The notes beneath the pieces were generated by a model. The model made no database searches. It was not told where the DNA came from and worked only from the letters and a program-made list of their open reading frames with translations. From a virus: DNA of 26,234 nucleotides. This document shows, one piece after another, positions 3,672-20,985 of the stretch. How positions within the stretch are numbered: position 1 is the first letter of the stretch; each line of letters opens with the position of its first letter. The stretch is taken from IMG/VR virus record IMGVR_UViG_3300042868_002695, positions 1 through 26,234 of that record. One strand, given 5' to 3'. The position numbers were made by a program, and so were the translations under genes.

Positions 3672-4105
3672 TTGAGTGCTTCCACACCAGCGAACAAAGC
3701 GCCGTAGTGCTCGGGCTTCACATCGTTGATGTTCTGGTAACCCAGACCCACCAGGACGTTCTGGATCTGTGCGCCCTTGGCAGCACCCAGAGCCTTGTAT
3801 GCGCCCATGACGTAGTCGATCAGACCTTTGCCATCCGTGAACGGTGCGCCAGTGGCCACAGGGGCAGCAGCAGGCGCTGGGGCCACGAAGGCAGGAGGCG
3901 CTGGCATTGCGGGTGCAGCAGTCACGGGAGCAGCGGCCACGGGTGCGGGGGTGTCCACGACAGACACAACCACGGGGGCAGCTTGTACCACGGGTGCGGG
4001 TGTTGGCGCAACAGTGGCGGGGGCTGTTACATTGATGCCTTCAATTTTGGCAGTCAGTGCGATCACGGCTTGAGCCAGTGCTTTGATTTCAGCTTCGAGT
4101 GACAT
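3668..4105 (-). CDS. Ala/Pro-rich linker protein with C-terminal globular domain
   Basis: A 145-aa protein of unknown function. Residues 1-24 form an amphipathic helix, about 28-85 are a low-complexity Ala/Pro/Val linker, and about 87-145 are a compact domain (FTDGKGLIDYVMGAYKALG and a hydrophobic C-terminus). The layout resembles a tether joining two folded parts. The ATG at 4105 lies inside the 3' end of the RHH gene (17-base overlap) and has AAGGA about nine bases upstream. The stop overlaps the GTG of the next gene. Strong bias toward GCx and CCx codons explains the open frames on the opposite strand. Confidence 0.7.
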   Translation of the reverse strand: MSLEAEIKALAQAVIALTAKIEGINVTAPATVAPTPAPVVQAAPVVVSVVDTPAPVAAAPVTAAPAMPAPPAFVAPAPAAAPVATGAPFTDGKGLIDYVMGAYKALGAAKGAQIQNVLVGLGYQNINDVKPEHYGALFAGVEALK

Positions 4106-4286
4106 AGAGAGATTCCTTTACGGTAACGGGAGGTTGAATGATCAGGCGGTCGTCAATGAACGCCTGAATGATTTCACGCAAGACCTCAGACGGTTGCCCG
4201 AACTTCTTGACCTTGCCGTGAAATTTCTTGTGATCATCCGGTGTCACCCGGATGGTCAGAAACTTTGATTTGGATTTGGTTGCCAT
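4089..4286 (-). CDS. Ribbon-helix-helix (CopG/Arc-like) regulator
   Basis: A 65-aa basic protein. 'KFLTIRVTPDDHKKF' fits the N-terminal beta strand and first helix of RHH DNA-binding proteins, and 'QPSEVLREIIQAFIDD' fits the second helix with its conserved Ser/Glu start. It is the first gene of the leftward replication operon, with AGGAAAT upstream of its ATG. An inverted repeat (TGTAGCACA / TGTGCCACA) lies about 30 bases upstream, so autoregulation of the divergent promoters is plausible but inferred. Confidence 0.7.
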   Translation of the reverse strand: MATKSKSKFLTIRVTPDDHKKFHGKVKKFGQPSEVLREIIQAFIDDRLIIQPPVTVKESLYVTRS

Positions 4287-8759: not shown

Positions 8760-9065
8760 TTATAAAGGGCTTTTTTCCATTTTGGGTTTCTGCTTAGGGG
8801 GTTTCGGTGGAAGTGGTGCAGGGATCAGGCCAGCGAGCAGCGCGGGCGCCAGTGCGCCCACCATGTCGAGCACCTCCACCAGTCGCACGGCGGCGGCGCT
8901 GGGCGCGCGGGTACCCGTGCGCCATTTGCGAAGGGTGAACACTGGCACGCCCAGCAGACCGGCAGCGCGGGCTTCGGTCAACTGGTGGCGCTCGATGATT
9001 GCGGCCAGTGCGGCCACGAATTCAGGGTTTTGCGGGGCTTTTTCATCGGTCATAGGGGTTTGCAT
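8760..9065 (-). CDS. HTH (Cro/CI-like) transcriptional regulator
   Basis: A 101-aa protein. Residues about 20-65 form a helix-turn-helix of the Cro/CI or antitoxin type (LTEARAAGLLGVPVFTLRKW, then TGTRAPSAAAVRLVEVL). The C-terminus is Ala/Leu/Pro-rich and ends in a basic KPPKQKPKMEK tail. The ATG at 9065 was chosen over an in-frame TTG two codons earlier. No good ribosome site is present. A terminator-like hairpin ends about 12 bases upstream of the start, so expression may depend on read-through. The stop codon TAA lies in an AT-rich imperfect hairpin. Confidence 0.72.
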   Translation of the reverse strand: MQTPMTDEKAPQNPEFVAALAAIIERHQLTEARAAGLLGVPVFTLRKWRTGTRAPSAAAVRLVEVLDMVGALAPALLAGLIPAPLPPKPPKQKPKMEKSPL

Positions 9066-9076
9066 GGTCAAGGGTC

Positions 9077-10149: not shown

Positions 10150-10799
10150 GCAACCACCTTCAAGCGAATGACACGGGCCATCTTTTGACCGTGGGCAGGG
10201 TAACAGATCAATCCAATGGATCTATCCCAGCAGGCACGACACCCAGAGCACTGGCCCCCGTGCTCATAAGCCCGGCACAGTGCAGCGCCGGGGCGGTCCT
10301 GATAAGTCTCAGCACTGGGTCCAATGACGGACCCGTGAAGGCCGGGGATGTATTCCCCGGTGATGCTGTCAGCGGAAAACCTCACGGCCACATTGGGCAG
10401 CGCTCGCATCTGATCCAAGACCAAACGGAATTTGGGGAATTTGTGCATTCGAGTTGGTAACCAGTGCTTGACCCATGGCGTGCGTTGCATGACTTCGAGC
10501 ACTTTTTCAGCCAGTGCCAGCGAATACAGATCCCCCGAGTCAAACCACCTGAAGTAACGATCATTGTCAAGCTCGGCCACCATCTCGTCGCACCAGTCGA
10601 GCCGCTGCCAGTCGAGCCGGTTGTATTCCCGTGGGGCTTTGACGTTCAGGTAACGATAATTCCCCGTGGTGGCGTAACAGCCTTTACAGGCGTCCACCAG
10701 CACGCCCGGTGACTCTATCGACCCGGGACAGGTGTCAAGGGCTTGAAGGGACCACGAACGGATCCCGTCCAGCTTTGAAGTGATGGAAATTTTAGGCAT
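10146..10799 (-). CDS. Gp88-like Cys-rich phage protein
   Basis: A 217-aa protein that resembles the phage 'gene product 88' family, based on memory of its pattern. DACKGCYATTGNYRY gives a C-x2-C cluster near residue 38. FRWFDSGDL and LPTRMHKF follow in the middle, then RFSADSITGEYIPG. The C-terminal region holds a second Cys set (LCRAYEHGGQCSGCRACW, near 175-192) and ends LICYPAHGQKM. The two Cys sets suggest a metal or Fe-S site; the family has been compared with radical-SAM-like folds but no activity is established. It overlaps the HTH gene upstream by eight bases and the 48-aa gene by ATGA. Confidence 0.6.
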   Translation of the reverse strand: MPKISITSKLDGIRSWSLQALDTCPGSIESPGVLVDACKGCYATTGNYRYLNVKAPREYNRLDWQRLDWCDEMVAELDNDRYFRWFDSGDLYSLALAEKVLEVMQRTPWVKHWLPTRMHKFPKFRLVLDQMRALPNVAVRFSADSITGEYIPGLHGSVIGPSAETYQDRPGAALCRAYEHGGQCSGCRACWDRSIGLICYPAHGQKMARVIRLKVVA

Positions 10800-11049: not shown

Positions 11050-11357
11050 TTGGTCACCCCCATGGCAGCAATTTGAGAATCAATCAACCGGGTGACCCCG
11101 GCCACCAGTGAGTCGAGATCCCGCGCCCATTGGTTGACCCCGCCCGTGAAGTCCTTCAGGTGCTGGGCCGTGCGGTACATGTAACCCAGCGAGCCGCAGG
11201 GCTCAGTGTTCACGTAAACGATGGCACCACCACGGGCGATGAACCCGGAACAGCCACGTTTATCGTCATTTACCCGGATGTTACGAAGGGTGACCACATG
11301 GTCAGGCGAAAAACGGTTTTTGAGTTTACCCAGTAAGATTTTGTTGAAGTCGGCCAT
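11046..11357 (-). CDS. Hypothetical protein sharing an N-terminal cassette with its neighbour
   Basis: A 103-aa protein, unknown function. The first residues MADFNKILLGKLK are identical to those of the next gene upstream, through a 49-bp direct repeat at 11320-11368. The rest (VVTLRNIRVNDDKRGCSGF, then a hydrophobic strand and a helical C-terminus) is unrelated to that gene. The inner ATG is preferred because AGGGG lies seven bases upstream; an ATG two codons earlier overlaps the previous stop. Ends in ATGA with the HTH gene. Confidence 0.6.
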   Translation of the reverse strand: MADFNKILLGKLKNRFSPDHVVTLRNIRVNDDKRGCSGFIARGGAIVYVNTEPCGSLGYMYRTAQHLKDFTGGVNQWARDLDSLVAGVTRLIDSQIAAMGVTK

Positions 11358-11368
11358 GATCATGCCCC
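11320..11368. repeat. 49-bp direct repeat, copy 1 (gene-start cassette)
   Basis: Identical over 49 bases to 11778-11826. It covers the ribosome site, the start codons and the first 13 codons (MADFNKILLGKLK) of the 103-aa gene. Confidence 0.92.
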
Positions 11369-11815
11369 TTTATTAATTGCATTGCAGGTAAATTGCCAAA
11401 CAGCGTCAAGCACTTTAGAAAGATCAGCGTTTATTTGTGCGGCGCGTTCTTTGTTGTGAATGATGTCAATCAAGCTGTGTTGACTTGTCTGGTGCCCCCC
11501 ATGCTCATAAACCTCAGCGGCTTTTTTAAGGGCGTACGCCTGCACGAACAGATCACGAATAACCCACCATTCAAGATCAGTTATGGAAGTGGCTTCAAAT
11601 AGATCGCTTGCCGTGTATTTGTACGATCCTTTGCCGTCCTTGATGTAAAGCAAACTCTCAAAATGGAAATGACAGTTTTTATTTCCGATATATCCGAATC
11701 CCCAATACCATCCGCATTCCCATTTGTGCTTTTCAAGCCAAATGTTTTCACCATCGGCGAAGGTGCCCGCGTTGCTCTTGAGTTTACCCAGTAAGATTTT
11801 GTTGAAGTCGGCCAT
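11360..11815 (-). CDS. Conserved phage hypothetical protein with duplicated N-terminal cassette
   Basis: A 151-aa protein. After the shared MADFNKILLGKLK segment comes KHKWECGWYWGFGYIGN and HFHFESLLY, a pattern I recognise from many prophage hypothetical proteins, then a helical C-terminal half (LEWWVIRDLFVQAYALKKAA). It probably represents the original owner of the N-terminal segment, since homologues of this body are common. It shows lower GC and more AT-rich codons than its neighbours, consistent with separate acquisition. The inner ATG has the better ribosome spacing. Confidence 0.62.
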   Translation of the reverse strand: MADFNKILLGKLKSNAGTFADGENIWLEKHKWECGWYWGFGYIGNKNCHFHFESLLYIKDGKGSYKYTASDLFEATSITDLEWWVIRDLFVQAYALKKAAEVYEHGGHQTSQHSLIDIIHNKERAAQINADLSKVLDAVWQFTCNAINKGA

Positions 11816-11826
11816 GATCATGCCCC
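11778..11826. repeat. 49-bp direct repeat, copy 2 (gene-start cassette)
   Basis: Second copy of the sequence at 11320-11368, at the start of the 151-aa gene. The two copies lie 458 bp apart, so recombination between them would delete one gene body cleanly. Confidence 0.92.
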
Positions 11827-12120
11827 CTTACGTGCGGACACGCGGACAGTCGAGTAAGGCGTCCCCGTTTCAGTGTGAGCGGTGATCAGTTGGCGCGATG
11901 GTTTGAAGTGTTCAGCGATGGCACGCCACGCGATAACCTCACGGCCCGGGCAGTGGCTCACGGCAACACGGTAAAGATCCCCTTCGAGTGTCTCCACCCC
12001 GGCAAGGATCAGCTCAGCCTTCAGGGCCTTGACTTCAGTTTCAATGTCGGCAGCAGCAGCGGCCAGCACGCCCAAGCGGTCAACAATGGCGGACAGGGTT
12101 TGTGAGTGTTCGTTTTTCAT
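11818..12120 (-). CDS. Coiled-coil phage hypothetical protein (100 aa)
   Basis: A 100-aa protein. Residues about 8-38 are a heptad-like helix (LSAIVDRLGVLAAAAADIET then VKALKAELI), followed by a small beta-rich part with GDLYRVAVS and a basic C-terminus (STVRVSARKG). Similar proteins occur in many phages near early genes; none has a proven role. AAGGAC lies ten bases upstream of the start, and the intergenic space contains TTACGGGTT repeats. Confidence 0.62.
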   Translation of the reverse strand: MKNEHSQTLSAIVDRLGVLAAAAADIETEVKALKAELILAGVETLEGDLYRVAVSHCPGREVIAWRAIAEHFKPSRQLITAHTETGTPYSTVRVSARKGA

Positions 12121-12131
12121 GGTGTCAGTCC

Positions 12132-12150
12132 TTACGGGTTACGGGTTACA
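12132..12150. repeat. TTACGGGTT repeat, intergenic (tandem)
   Basis: TTACGGGTT directly followed by an overlapping TTACGGGTTACA in the gap between the 100-aa and 67-aa genes. Further full copies lie at 12369-12380 and 12481-12492. Confidence 0.7.
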
Positions 12151-12465: not shown

Positions 12466-12480
12466 GAGGTTCTCCAAGAT

Positions 12481-12492
12481 TTACGGGTTACA
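12481..12492. repeat. TTACGGGTTACA repeat, third site
   Basis: A full copy in the leader between the presumed leftward promoter and the 29-aa gene. A partial copy (TTACGGGTTT) lies at 9114-9123 after the 19-aa gene. Confidence 0.65.
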
Positions 12493-12517
12493 AGGCCGCA
12501 TTGTGTGCGGTGATGTA

Positions 12518-12526
12518 ATCATAACA
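12518..12526 (-). promoter_or_regulatory. Candidate leftward promoter of the small-gene operon
   Basis: On the minus strand TGTTATGAT is an extended -10 (TGn plus TATGAT, five of six matches to TATAAT). No good -35 is present; instead that position is covered by the palindrome at 12533-12547, as expected if a protein bound there controls the promoter. About 50 bases downstream comes the first gene, with a CCGCA/TGCGG inverted repeat (12496-12510) in the leader. Confidence 0.5.
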
Positions 12527-12532
12527 CAGATA

Positions 12533-13089
12533 TGACCCAGCGGGTCAACAATTATTTGCATCAGTAGTTTCCCTACCCGCTGGGTGGTGCCTTTGTTGCC
12601 ATGGTGTCAGTGCGTCAGTTGTGACTTACAGAGGGGAGAGAGATTCTAGGATTCTGAAAAAAAAGACCCTTTCCAAAAAGTCGTATTTTTAAGCCTCGCC
12701 TGCGCGATGTCACCGGTGTACCACTCACCGCCATTTTCCCCGATCCCTTGACCCGCTGGGTGCATTGTGACCCGCTGGGTCATTGGCCCATTGGGTCACG
12801 GGTTCACCCACTGGGTTTGCCCCTTGAGCCACGGAATCACGGGATCAGGTGACCCGCTGGGTGACTGGTACTGGGTGCAGTGGGTGACCCGCTGGGTGAT
12901 GCTCGGGGTGCTCGGGCTCACTGGATCGCGGCACCATGGTCACACGGGCTCACGCCATGGACCCATGGGATCGCGGGTGCCGGGGTGCCAAGGGGGAGGG
13001 GGTAGGGCCGAGCGACAAGGGTCTGCGGCTACGGAGGCATCAGACTAAATTTTTTATTTTTCAAATGACTCCCTAGACCCAGTGGGTTC
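12533..13089. repeat. Array of nine imperfect palindromes (TGACCC-N3-GGGTCA type) in a 655-bp gene-free region
   Basis: The interval 12466-13120 has no supportable gene. It carries TGACCCAGCGGGTCA (12533), TACCCGCTGGGTGG (12574), TGACCCGCTGGGTGC (12749), TGACCCGCTGGGTCA (12768), TGGCCCATTGGGTCA (12784), TCACCCACTGGGTTT (12804), TGACCCGCTGGGTGA (12850 and 12885) and AGACCCAGTGGGTTC (13075). Half-sites lie between the two at 12850-12899. Six full sites are packed in 12749-12899 with centre spacings of 16-46 bases. Two GGATCGCGG copies (12923, 12968) and an AT-rich run (13046-13066) follow. Candidate roles are operator array, replication origin iterons or terminase pac site. Confidence 0.85.
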
Positions 13090-13090
13090 A

Positions 13091-13120
13091 TTGCAACTCC
13101 AGACACACATGTGCTACCCT
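13091..13120 (+). promoter_or_regulatory. Candidate late promoter before terS
   Basis: TTGCAA (13091-13096) and, 18 bases on, TACCCT (13115-13120) preceded by TGC (extended -10). The TGTGCTACCCT core resembles TGTGCTACACT in the leftward replication promoter near 4.3 kb. Transcription would start within a few bases of the terS ATG codons. The palindrome at 13075-13089 abuts the -35. Confidence 0.35.
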
Positions 13121-13663
13121 ATGGCCACTATGGACACATTGAACCCCAATCCCGTAGGCGCAGATGTCGCACATCAAATCGAACTACCAGACTGGCTCGA
13201 CCCTGCGCCACGTAAACCTTCGCCCGAAGGCAGAGCACTCGTACTTGTGCAGTATGAGCAGGTCTTCATGCGAGCCATCGACTCGATTGCCCACGGCATG
13301 TCCCTGTCCCAAGTGCTGCGGGATGACCAGCGGGACATCGACTACAACGACTTCTACCGGTGGATCAAGAAGGACCCGCAGAGGAAGATGCTGTTTGACG
13401 AAGCCCAGGAGATGCGCACCGAGTTCATGGCCGGTGAGATCATCGAGATTGCCGATGCCGATGACTCCTTGGAGGATGTCCAGCGTAGTCGCCTCAAGAT
13501 CGACACTCGCAAGTGGCTCATGGGTGCCCACAATCGGAAGAAGTACGGCGAGACGAAGACCGTGGAGCTCGGCGGGTCGATCTCGATCACCGAGGCGCTG
13601 GCTGCGGCACAGGCCCGGATCATTGACGCTGAAGTGATTGACGTGGACTCGAGGGACATTTGA
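13121..13663 (+). CDS. terS: Terminase small subunit
   Basis: A 180-aa protein with the shape of Sf6/P22-group small terminases. An HTH-like N-terminal part (AIDSIAHGMSLSQVLRDD followed by DYNDFYRWI) is typical of 'Terminase small subunit-like' proteins. Next comes the helical segment MRTEFMAGEIIEIADADDS, then RLKIDTRKWLMGAHNRKKYG, and an Ala-rich C-terminus. It recognises the packaging site and recruits the large terminase. I chose ATG 13121; ATG 13130 is equally possible and neither has a ribosome site, so a leaderless or nearly leaderless message is possible. It ends in a TGATG overlap with terL. Confidence 0.8.
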   Translation: MATMDTLNPNPVGADVAHQIELPDWLDPAPRKPSPEGRALVLVQYEQVFMRAIDSIAHGMSLSQVLRDDQRDIDYNDFYRWIKKDPQRKMLFDEAQEMRTEFMAGEIIEIADADDSLEDVQRSRLKIDTRKWLMGAHNRKKYGETKTVELGGSISITEALAAAQARIIDAEVIDVDSRDI

Positions 13664-18392: not shown

Positions 18393-18556
18393 AGATTGAT
18401 TTCGAGTTCCAGACCGCGCACGGTATGTACCGTGACGCGCTGTATTTGCCTGATGACCACGGTCTGAGCGATGCTGAGATCGAGGCCATGAAGCAACAGC
18501 GCGTGGACAACTGGATCGCCATCATCACTGCACCGCCCCCTGATGAGGTGATCTAA
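18389..18556 (+). CDS. 55-aa hypothetical protein
   Basis: The ORF encodes MKIDFEFQTAHGMYRDALYL, then a helical acidic part (LSDAEIEAMKQQRVDNW) and APPPDEVI. 'MYRDALYLPDDHGLSDAEIE' resembles small phage proteins near tail genes. It starts in ATGA with the gene before and its TAA overlaps the ATG of the adhesin (TAATG), so all three are coupled. Confidence 0.65.
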   Translation: MKIDFEFQTAHGMYRDALYLPDDHGLSDAEIEAMKQQRVDNWIAIITAPPPDEVI

Positions 18557-20985
18557 TGGCGAACAGATTCTGGGTTGGCGGTACAGGCAACTGGGACAGC
18601 ACCAACACCGCAAACTGGTCAACCACCTCAGGCGGCGCTGGCGGTGCGTCTGTTCCTATTGCAGGCGACACCCCACAGTTTGATGGTAACTCGGGTACAG
18701 GTACGGTCACGTTCACCAACAGCGGAGTGACCGTAGGTGCGGTGACGTTTGCAGGCACAGCCACAGGTATCACACTGGACTTGGGAGCTGCTTTTACGTG
18801 TTCTAGTACGTTCACGCTTGGTGCAGGGACACTAAACACCAATAACTATAACTTCACCGCTTCCTCTATTTCGTCTAGCAACTCAAACACTCGGTCGATC
18901 AGTCTTGGTTCGTCCACGGTTTCGTTGAGCGGGACAGCGCCTGTCATTTTCACGACAAACACCAACTTGACATTTAACGCAGGCACTTCGCAGATTAATT
19001 TGTCTACAGGAAGCCCTGCTTTTACAGGTGGAGGATTGACTTTTCATAACGTAACTTTTACAAGCGCGTCACCTTCCAGTCCATCAATATCAGGCGCAAA
19101 TACGTTTAACAATTTGACGTTTACTGGGCGCACCTCTGTTGGAATAGCGAAAATCAGTATTTCAGCAAACCAGACTGTTTCAAATACTTTGACATTCAAC
19201 GCAGGCACAAACGCCGTGATGAGGTTGATGCTACAGTCTGACGTATTTGCTACTCAGAGAACCATATCGGCTGCTTCTGTTGTTGCCACAGATACAGATT
19301 TCCGAGACATTGCAATTACAGGCGCTGGTGCGCCTGCAAGCGGTACTCGATTGGGTGATTGCAAAGGTAATAGTGGAATCACGTTCGATGCAGCCAAGAC
19401 TGTTTATTTTCGATCCACTGTGTCTGCAAACTATGGAAGCGCGTTGGCGTGGTCTGCCACATCTGGCGGCACTATTGACTCAACGCAGTTCCCGTTAGCG
19501 CAAGACACTGCAATCATTCCATCAGCCACATACCCTTCGTCTGGCGCAGTAATCACGCTGAACGCCGAATACAACATCGGTACGCTTGATATGTCAGGAC
19601 GTACGACAAACACTGTTGTATTTGCCACAGGTACTACTGCAACAAACGTATATGGAAATTGGATTAACGGAACAGGGTGTTCATTTACAGGGACAGCCGT
19701 AGTCAGTTTTCTTGGACGCACAACTCAGACGCTGACAACTGCTGGTTGCACGTTCACTCAGGAATTTACGATTAACTCGCCAAGCGGGTCAGTCACTCTA
19801 CAAGATGCGTTTGCGACAAATAGAAACCGAAATTCCGCAATCAGTCTTATTGCTGGAACATTTGATGCTAACGGTTACAACGTCACTTTGTCAGGAGCAA
19901 GCGGTGGAACGTTGTCTACGGGTACAGCAACTCGTACATTGGCAATCGGCACAGGTACTTGGGCTATTAGCGGAAGCGGGACAAACCCTTGGGCTGTTAC
20001 ATCCACAGGATTGACCGTCACAGGAACAGGAACAATCAGTCTTGTGGCAGCCACAGCAAAGACATTTGCAGGTGGTGGTATCCAAACATGGCCCACCTTA
20101 AACCAAGGTGGTGCAGGTGCGCTAACCGTCACAAGCTCGAACAAATTTGCCAACATCACCAACACGGCTATTGGTTCTGTCCTGTTCACTGGCGGAACGA
20201 CCAACGAGTTCACAGCATTCAATTTAAGTGGTGCATCAGGCACTCCAGTGGTTCTTGGAAGCACCAACACCACGCAGGCGATTCTCAAGAAGTCGTCAAC
20301 GTGGTACATGGGTGCAAACTCGACCGATAATGGCAACAACACCGGCCTGACGTTCACCGCTGGTGGCGGCATCGACTATTTGGTAGTCAGCTACATCAAC
20401 GGTCAGTTGGGCGCGGCCAATTACGTTGTCACGGCCAACAACGGCACCTACGCCCTGACTGGCCAGAACGCCACAATCGCCTACGCTGGCGCAGGTGGGT
20501 ACACCCTGGTCGCCAACAACGGCACCTACGCTGTCACCGGTCAAGCCGCCAGTCTGCTGCGGTCGAGGCTGGTGTCTGCGGTCTACGGCACCTACGCCCT
20601 GACTGGTCAGAACGCCACGCTGTTGAAGTCCAGGGTAATGCTGGCCAACACCGGCGCATATTCGGTTGCCGGTCAAGCCGCCATCGTGGTCTACACCCCT
20701 GCTGGTGGTGCCTACACGATCATGGCTGGCAGTGGCCTGTACGCTGTCACAGGCCAATCGGCCTCTTTGTCAAGGGATCGGTTGATCTCTGGCGGCGTTG
20801 GGACGTACAATACAACCGGATTTGCCGCGACAATCCAAAAATCACGGATTGTCTACGCCAACAACGGGTCGTACACTGTGGCAGGGCAACCTGCCGCCGT
20901 TGTGGTCAGCGGGGTCACGCCAATTGTCCCCACTGACGACTTGCTGATCAAACTTCGGTCATTCACCGAAAGAAGGAGATTTTAA
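18556..20985 (+). CDS. Large repeat-containing adhesin / receptor-binding structural protein
   Basis: An 809-aa Gly/Ser/Thr/Asn-rich protein. Residues 1-45 (RFWVGGTGNWDSTNTANWST, SVPIAGDTPQFDGNSG) form a module known from phage and bacterial surface proteins. A diverged copy appears near 282-315 (ANYGSALAWSATSGG, PLAQDTAII). Between and after are beta-solenoid-like repeats (VTFAG, LTFNAGT, LSGASG). Residues 622-795 hold about seven repeats of the GTYALTGQNAT type separated by LLRSRL or LLKSRV linkers. Codons in about 18790-20340 are AT-richer than in neighbours, suggesting transfer. It is probably a surface adhesin or fibre on the virion; the exact receptor is unknown. It overlaps the next gene by TAATG. 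Confidence 0.72.
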   Translation: MANRFWVGGTGNWDSTNTANWSTTSGGAGGASVPIAGDTPQFDGNSGTGTVTFTNSGVTVGAVTFAGTATGITLDLGAAFTCSSTFTLGAGTLNTNNYNFTASSISSSNSNTRSISLGSSTVSLSGTAPVIFTTNTNLTFNAGTSQINLSTGSPAFTGGGLTFHNVTFTSASPSSPSISGANTFNNLTFTGRTSVGIAKISISANQTVSNTLTFNAGTNAVMRLMLQSDVFATQRTISAASVVATDTDFRDIAITGAGAPASGTRLGDCKGNSGITFDAAKTVYFRSTVSANYGSALAWSATSGGTIDSTQFPLAQDTAIIPSATYPSSGAVITLNAEYNIGTLDMSGRTTNTVVFATGTTATNVYGNWINGTGCSFTGTAVVSFLGRTTQTLTTAGCTFTQEFTINSPSGSVTLQDAFATNRNRNSAISLIAGTFDANGYNVTLSGASGGTLSTGTATRTLAIGTGTWAISGSGTNPWAVTSTGLTVTGTGTISLVAATAKTFAGGGIQTWPTLNQGGAGALTVTSSNKFANITNTAIGSVLFTGGTTNEFTAFNLSGASGTPVVLGSTNTTQAILKKSSTWYMGANSTDNGNNTGLTFTAGGGIDYLVVSYINGQLGAANYVVTANNGTYALTGQNATIAYAGAGGYTLVANNGTYAVTGQAASLLRSRLVSAVYGTYALTGQNATLLKSRVMLANTGAYSVAGQAAIVVYTPAGGAYTIMAGSGLYAVTGQSASLSRDRLISGGVGTYNTTGFAATIQKSRIVYANNGSYTVAGQPAAVVVSGVTPIVPTDDLLIKLRSFTERRRF
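20419..20916 (+). repeat. Seven tandem GTYxxTGQxAx repeats in the adhesin C-terminus
   Basis: Repeat cores read GTYALTGQNATI, GTYAVTGQAASL, GTYALTGQNATL, GAYSVAGQAAIV, GLYAVTGQSASL, GTYNTTGFAATI and GSYTVAGQPAAV, each about 20-28 residues apart. Copies are also similar in DNA (GGCACCTACGCC and TGACTGGTCAGAACGCCAC motifs), so copy number may change by recombination. Confidence 0.8.

Follow-up and report, generated by a model that had tools for sequence, protein, structure and literature searches.

Divergent phage promoters governed from one multi-site operator are familiar from lambda, where CI and Cro act at OR and OL through sites in the promoter core and beside the -35 box. The PRM transcript that encodes CI is leaderless. 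An operator placed inside the core or spacer of a promoter is the classic position of a repressor. In phi29, the product of early gene 4, p4, controls the passage from early to late transcription; it has four sites between promoters A2c and A3 and stabilises the polymerase at A3 (PMC11476376). For MqsA (YgiT), residues Asn97 and Arg101 are reported to bind the palindrome ACCT-N3-AGGT (PMC4901048, PMC5422877). The locus analysed here shares features with each of these systems. A literature search turned up no account of an array or regulator like this one, and a search of annotated phages with DNA of the array region gave no match; the closest annotated records to these phages are metagenome-assembled too.

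The window (the whole stretch of 26,234 bases that was analysed) is uncultured freshwater phage DNA held as a single linear virus record. It contains eight exact copies of ACCC-N3-GGGT (ACCCNNNGGGT), all of them inside 12535-13087 (whole-window count; positions 12535, 12575, 12751, 12770, 12806, 12852, 12887 and 13077). By chance, 0.40 copies are expected in the window (maximum 2 in 100 shuffles), and for 12480-13130, 5000 dinucleotide shuffles gave a mean of 0.04 and a maximum of 2 against the eight observed. A ninth palindrome, GCCCATTGGGT at 12786, has one mismatch and an additional, weaker site lies at 12961. An earlier note, made from the letters of the window, had described nine copies of TGACCC-N3-GGGTCA. 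The eight ACCC cores and the near-match stand, but the outer TGA and TCA are loosely kept and the full form occurs only twice (12533 and 12768). It had correctly placed six of the sites within about 150 bp (12751-12897), and the spacings of this central cluster are without helical phasing (R about 0.17 at 10.5 bp). The features of the locus are given below, where 'early' and 'late' are labels inferred from gene content and the promoters are predicted from consensus.

8760-9071, minus strand: gene for a 103-aa Xre/MqsA-HigA2-type HTH protein, the putative array binder; recognition helix V44-W50 with K49
12518-12523, minus strand: predicted extended -10 of the leftward early promoter (TGTTATGAT on the minus strand), from comparison with relatives; site 1 covers its -35 region
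12535-12545: site 1 (ACCCAGCGGGT), exact match in the predicted leftward early promoter core, its centre 17 bp from the -10; geometry kept in relatives
12575-12585: site 2 (ACCCGCTGGGT), exact match 57 bp from the -10 of the leftward promoter, on its upstream side
12609-12735 (approximate limits): conserved element X, between sites 2 and 3, with inverted-repeat-like ends GTGCGTCA..GTGAC / GTCAC and CTCGCCTGCGCGATG
12751-12761: site 3, exact match, central cluster
12770-12780: site 4, exact match, central cluster
12786-12796: site 5 (GCCCATTGGGT), one mismatch, central cluster
12806-12816: site 6, exact match, central cluster
12852-12862: site 7, exact match, central cluster
12887-12897: site 8, exact match, central cluster
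12999-13066 (approximate limits): element Y, conserved in relatives, GGGTAGGGCCGA... followed by an AT-rich tract
13077-13087: site 9 (ACCCAGTGGGT), exact match, 3 bp short of the late promoter -35 and in helical phase to the -10 and ATG
13091-13120, plus strand: predicted late promoter, with -35 TTGCAA at 13091-13096, a spacer of 18 and an extended -10 TGCTACCCT (hexamer 13115-13120)
13130-13663, plus strand: terS, Sf6-type small terminase (PF20901, E=1.4e-19), with its start at 13130 taken from the conserved CACTATGGA

Eighty relatives, mainly uncultured virus contigs, were obtained from a TerS search of IMG/VR. The array upstream of terS is kept in most of them, across TerS identities of 53-91%, with 4-11 exact copies in most of those having enough upstream sequence. 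The layout is stable: two sites on the left, a cluster in the middle and a single one before terS. Comparison gives the conserved motif as ACCC-R-N-Y-GGGT. Across 20 relatives, mostly near-full-length contigs, exact ACCCRNYGGGT copies numbered 0-8 each. The earlier note had named equal density elsewhere in the genome, or absence from close relatives with the same gene order, as findings that would count against it. The motif is present in such relatives and almost absent off the array; the off-array copies examined were rejected as further operators, lying in primase or portal genes or in another apparently coding stretch. Some relatives have a split array; in L006, L007, L021, L037 and L052 the left pair is about 1.1 kb away. 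In L008 the central cluster is separated from terS by apparent homing-endonuclease-like DNA (judged by eye), and the late -10 has no neighbouring site. Reading of the sites in L036, L038-L044 and L079 revealed a changed or weakened motif in place of the exact ACCC form. That of L036 is a weakened ACCC form, and the L038 group has the same layout with GCCA-N-TGGC sites.

The concerted change of motif in the L038 group points to a trans-acting protein of altered specificity, and a single small protein made by the phage very probably binds all nine sites. It is almost certainly the 103-aa HTH protein, encoded downstream of site 1 on the leftward strand. A '101-aa HTH protein', here taken as the 103-aa ORF at 8760-9071, had been put forward as a binder in the earlier note, and this proposal is supported, since the motif tracks the protein across relatives. 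In the window the recognition helix reads G-V-P-V-F-T-L-R-K-W; the L038 group has G-V-S-V-S-T-L-R-H-W. A second HTH search gave five more contigs with the helix F-T-L-R-H-W. As these were found through the HTH protein and their arrays were read afterwards, they constitute a second test of co-variation, and the arrays (ATCCGCTGGGT and TGCCACTGGGT) are relaxed at the same base as in the phages with the S/H helix. When sites were picked by the CC-R-N-Y-GG core alone, half-site base +4 was G in 85% of half-sites for ..RKW proteins (50 contigs), C in 70% for STLRHW proteins (5 contigs) and G55/A26/C19 for FTLRHW proteins (4 contigs). As the sequences share ancestry, p-values overstate their independence here and elsewhere in the analysis. 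The HTH tree requires two separate Lys49-to-His changes, both forced by well-supported branches. Among the sequences compared, the sites and the predicted DNA-reading residue of the protein have changed together in two independent clades, with the H proteins differing from the K proteins at further residues besides position 49. If this code is true, the 103-aa protein would prefer ACCCGCTGGGT over GCCACTGGC; likewise, a K-type protein should favour ACCCGCTGGGT and an STLRHW protein GCCACTGGCT. The twofold paired change of Lys49 and one base would then amount to an experiment of nature on how MqsA/HigA-type HTH domains choose their DNA. In L142 the helix is FTLAKW, the otherwise invariant Arg48 being Ala, and the array still reads ACCC-N3-GGGT.

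Phages do use host regulators, and a host transcription factor borrowed by the phage might be imagined at the array. This is extremely improbable, as in each of two independent clades the altered base goes together with an altered recognition residue in a protein that the phage itself encodes. The suggestion that the palindromes are TerS binding sites for packaging (pac or cosB-like) draws on the position of the array directly upstream of terS, and on element Y, which could be a cleavage or packaging signal. However, the TerS tree and the motif disagree. The TerS of the STLRHW phages is about 72% identical to that of the window and nested in its clade, yet their motif has changed, whereas ACCC phages with TerS identity down to about 54-57% keep theirs. 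Moreover, two sites stand at the early promoter, far from terS (about 1.1 kb away in L006 and L007). The motif therefore follows the 103-aa HTH protein and not TerS relatedness, which contradicts the packaging reading offered at first and leaves it very improbable, and TerS was rejected as the binder. An 85-aa HTH protein, also proposed previously, was discarded because the only full-length copy besides that of the window is in L006. A 65-aa ribbon-helix-helix protein (4089-4286) belongs to a plausible class of binder; it too was set aside, because ACCC and GCC phages scarcely differ in its N-terminal strand region.

The AlphaFold model of the 103-aa protein has five helices, with pLDDT above 90 over the HTH. 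The best Foldseek match was HigA2 (probability 1.00), which shares about 23% identity over the HTH; the MqsA C-terminal domain (3fmy) followed with probability 0.98 and TM 0.72 on target, the target TM being about 0.7 for HigA2 as well, and no match having an E-value below 0.01. A family-profile search returned MqsA entries 3fmy, 2kz8 and 3gn5 at E=0.0011-0.0043, and in the profile alignment Lys49 falls on MqsA Arg101 and Phe45 on MqsA Asn97. Judged by profile and predicted fold, the C-terminal-type Xre HTH is related to MqsA, with the contact residues aligned. However, the protein misses the curated MqsA cut-offs (PF15731, 15.2 bits against 30; TIGR03830, 17.1 against 61.8) and, being devoid of cysteine, has no N-terminal CxxC zinc domain, so it does not belong to the MqsA family. 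The nine-site array and the phage developmental setting also differ from MqsA. The palindromes have the same geometry and are one base per half-site apart (ACCT-N3-AGGT against ACCC-N3-GGGT); the motif, at first not recognised from any named phage system, is thus not wholly unfamiliar. A homologue search in one genome per species gave one weak match, L183.

The positions of the outermost sites fit those first read from the window. Site 1 overlaps the predicted leftward promoter core and covers the -35 region, and site 9 ends 3 bp ahead of the predicted late -35. On the leftward side, many relatives carry TTGACA-N6-ACCC-N3-GGGT-TATAAT, in which the operator fills the promoter spacer. The distance from the site-1 centre to the -10 falls at 6-7, 15-17 or 25-28 bp in relatives (R=0.95 at 10.5 bp, n=44 de-duplicated) and the window belongs to the 17-bp class. 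The location of site 1 within the predicted core promoter can be read with good confidence as repression. A terminator-like stem-loop is found at 11104-11085, with others inside the leftward block, and one transcript may or may not reach the HTH gene past them. Within the same block, TTACGGGTTAC heptamer repeats at 12132, 12139, 12369 and 12481 mark short leaders before successive leftward early genes. They read GUAACCCGUAA on the early transcript and recur in most relatives checked (in L155 on the opposite strand, oriented the other way). A 53-nt direct repeat (98%; 11320-11372 and 11778-11830) spans the starts of two successive leftward genes, both of which begin with the N-terminus MIMADFNKILLGKLK, a gene-start duplication.

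On the late side, relatives conserve TGnTAnnnT 15-16 nt ahead of the terS ATG; all cases examined have 15-16 nt between the start of the -10 and the ATG, and 9 of 92 show a Shine-Dalgarno-like string before terS. The fixed distance and the rarity of such strings suggest that the terS mRNA is probably leaderless or nearly so, as is the lambda CI mRNA at PRM. Distances from the last site to the terS ATG group near 48, 59, 69 and 80 bp (47-51, 57-61, 67-70 and 80 bp; R=0.79, 38 cases, a value reached by none of 100,000 Monte Carlo draws), which places the site about 33, 44, 54 and 64 bp from the late -10. Its end is 3-4 bp before the -35, or higher up by one to three helical turns. A consensus promoter scan of the window did not list the early and late promoters, which have weak -35 boxes or a long spacer; both rest on comparison with relatives. 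That the sites at both opposed promoters sit at steps of whole helical turns shows that their geometry is under selection, and from it one would predict which promoter is blocked and which helped. A recognised site next to the late promoter is absent in the FTLRHW contigs, L008, L062, L064 and L071; the right-hand site is therefore not universal.

The phased position of site 9 upstream of the predicted -35 suggests, with moderate confidence, late activation. The activator positions of lambda cI, CRP and phi29 p4 differ in phase from site 9 by about 3-5 bp relative to the -10, and activation accordingly stays a proposal. It is possible, though unlikely, that the same protein represses both promoters in the manner of Cro and CI, with the late operon held until dilution, or titration by newly replicated array copies, removes the protein. 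Site 1 clearly stands where a repressor would, the homologue in DSL-LC05, a near relative, is annotated 'repressor protein C', and so large a number of sites could soak up the protein as phage DNA multiplies. However, a repressor of late genes that is made early would have to be released at some stage, and the last site stands upstream of the -35, not over the promoter core, with its phase kept, which suits contact with polymerase.

We consider it likely that the 103-aa HTH protein, as a dimer, binds the nine operators, represses the early promoter and probably activates the late one. An early/late operator had been among the first suggestions for the array, and promoter geometry, helical phasing and the co-variation with an early-block HTH protein give it strong support. 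The protein would be made from the leftward early gene block and accumulate; on site 1 (with site 2) it would block RNA polymerase at the early promoter driving its own block, and on site 9, upstream of the terS promoter -35, it would probably contact polymerase and activate late transcription. The six central sites may raise the local concentration, allow looping or serve another role. With the HTH gene in the leftward block, the simplest order would be early on, protein accumulates, early off, late on.

Such a switch is best read as resembling phi29 p4 in design while built from an antitoxin-type HTH. Both would employ an early phage protein, here placed by comparison, with several sites between early and late promoters. 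However, the present protein has an Xre-type HTH, its motif is another one, there are nine sites against four, a site directly overlaps the early promoter core and the phage has a P22-like portal. Like lambda OR and OL, the locus combines divergent promoters with an operator of several sites, which lie in the promoter core and beside the -35; its regulator gene, however, belongs to the early block and stands apart from the array, and a tyrosine integrase (PF00589) was found in 0 of 20 relatives. Together with the description of DSL-LC05 as lytic (PMC10611076), the latter argues against an immunity switch.

The central sites adjoin neither promoter. Their unphased arrangement between two other conserved elements, beside an AT-rich tract, could indicate that the cluster, the tract and elements X and Y form a replication origin for which the HTH protein is (also) the initiator, its promoter sites serving auto-control as in plasmid Rep. 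We regard this as distinctly unlikely, since the sites are palindromes of variable spacing and not one-orientation, iteron-type direct repeats. The phased direct repeats of an iteron-type origin were not found in the array, and the cumulative GC skew of DSL-LC05, which is confounded by gene strand, has no clear turn there. Elements X and Y are candidate origin or packaging elements. Element X was rejected as a structured RNA, having just a 4-bp hairpin, no compensatory change and no Rfam match. A broader scheme, in which one antitoxin-like HTH protein and a single array make a three-way hub that represses early genes, activates late genes and licenses replication at the central cluster with X and Y, and which changes at one recognition residue have retuned two or more times, is quite improbable as a whole.

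The array yields a testable regulator, a putative DNA code and target promoters from sequence alone. A related phage, MW202483 (L087), is without a homologue of the 103-aa protein and carries a different palindrome array, TGTTTA-NN-TAAACA, at 10210-10590, left of the terminase genes. An unrelated array in the same place suggests that such hubs may be a common design overlooked by phage annotation. Elsewhere in the window, six imperfect 45-nt direct repeats (20429-20896) lie inside an 809-aa ORF (18556-20985), the product of which is probably a repetitive structural protein.
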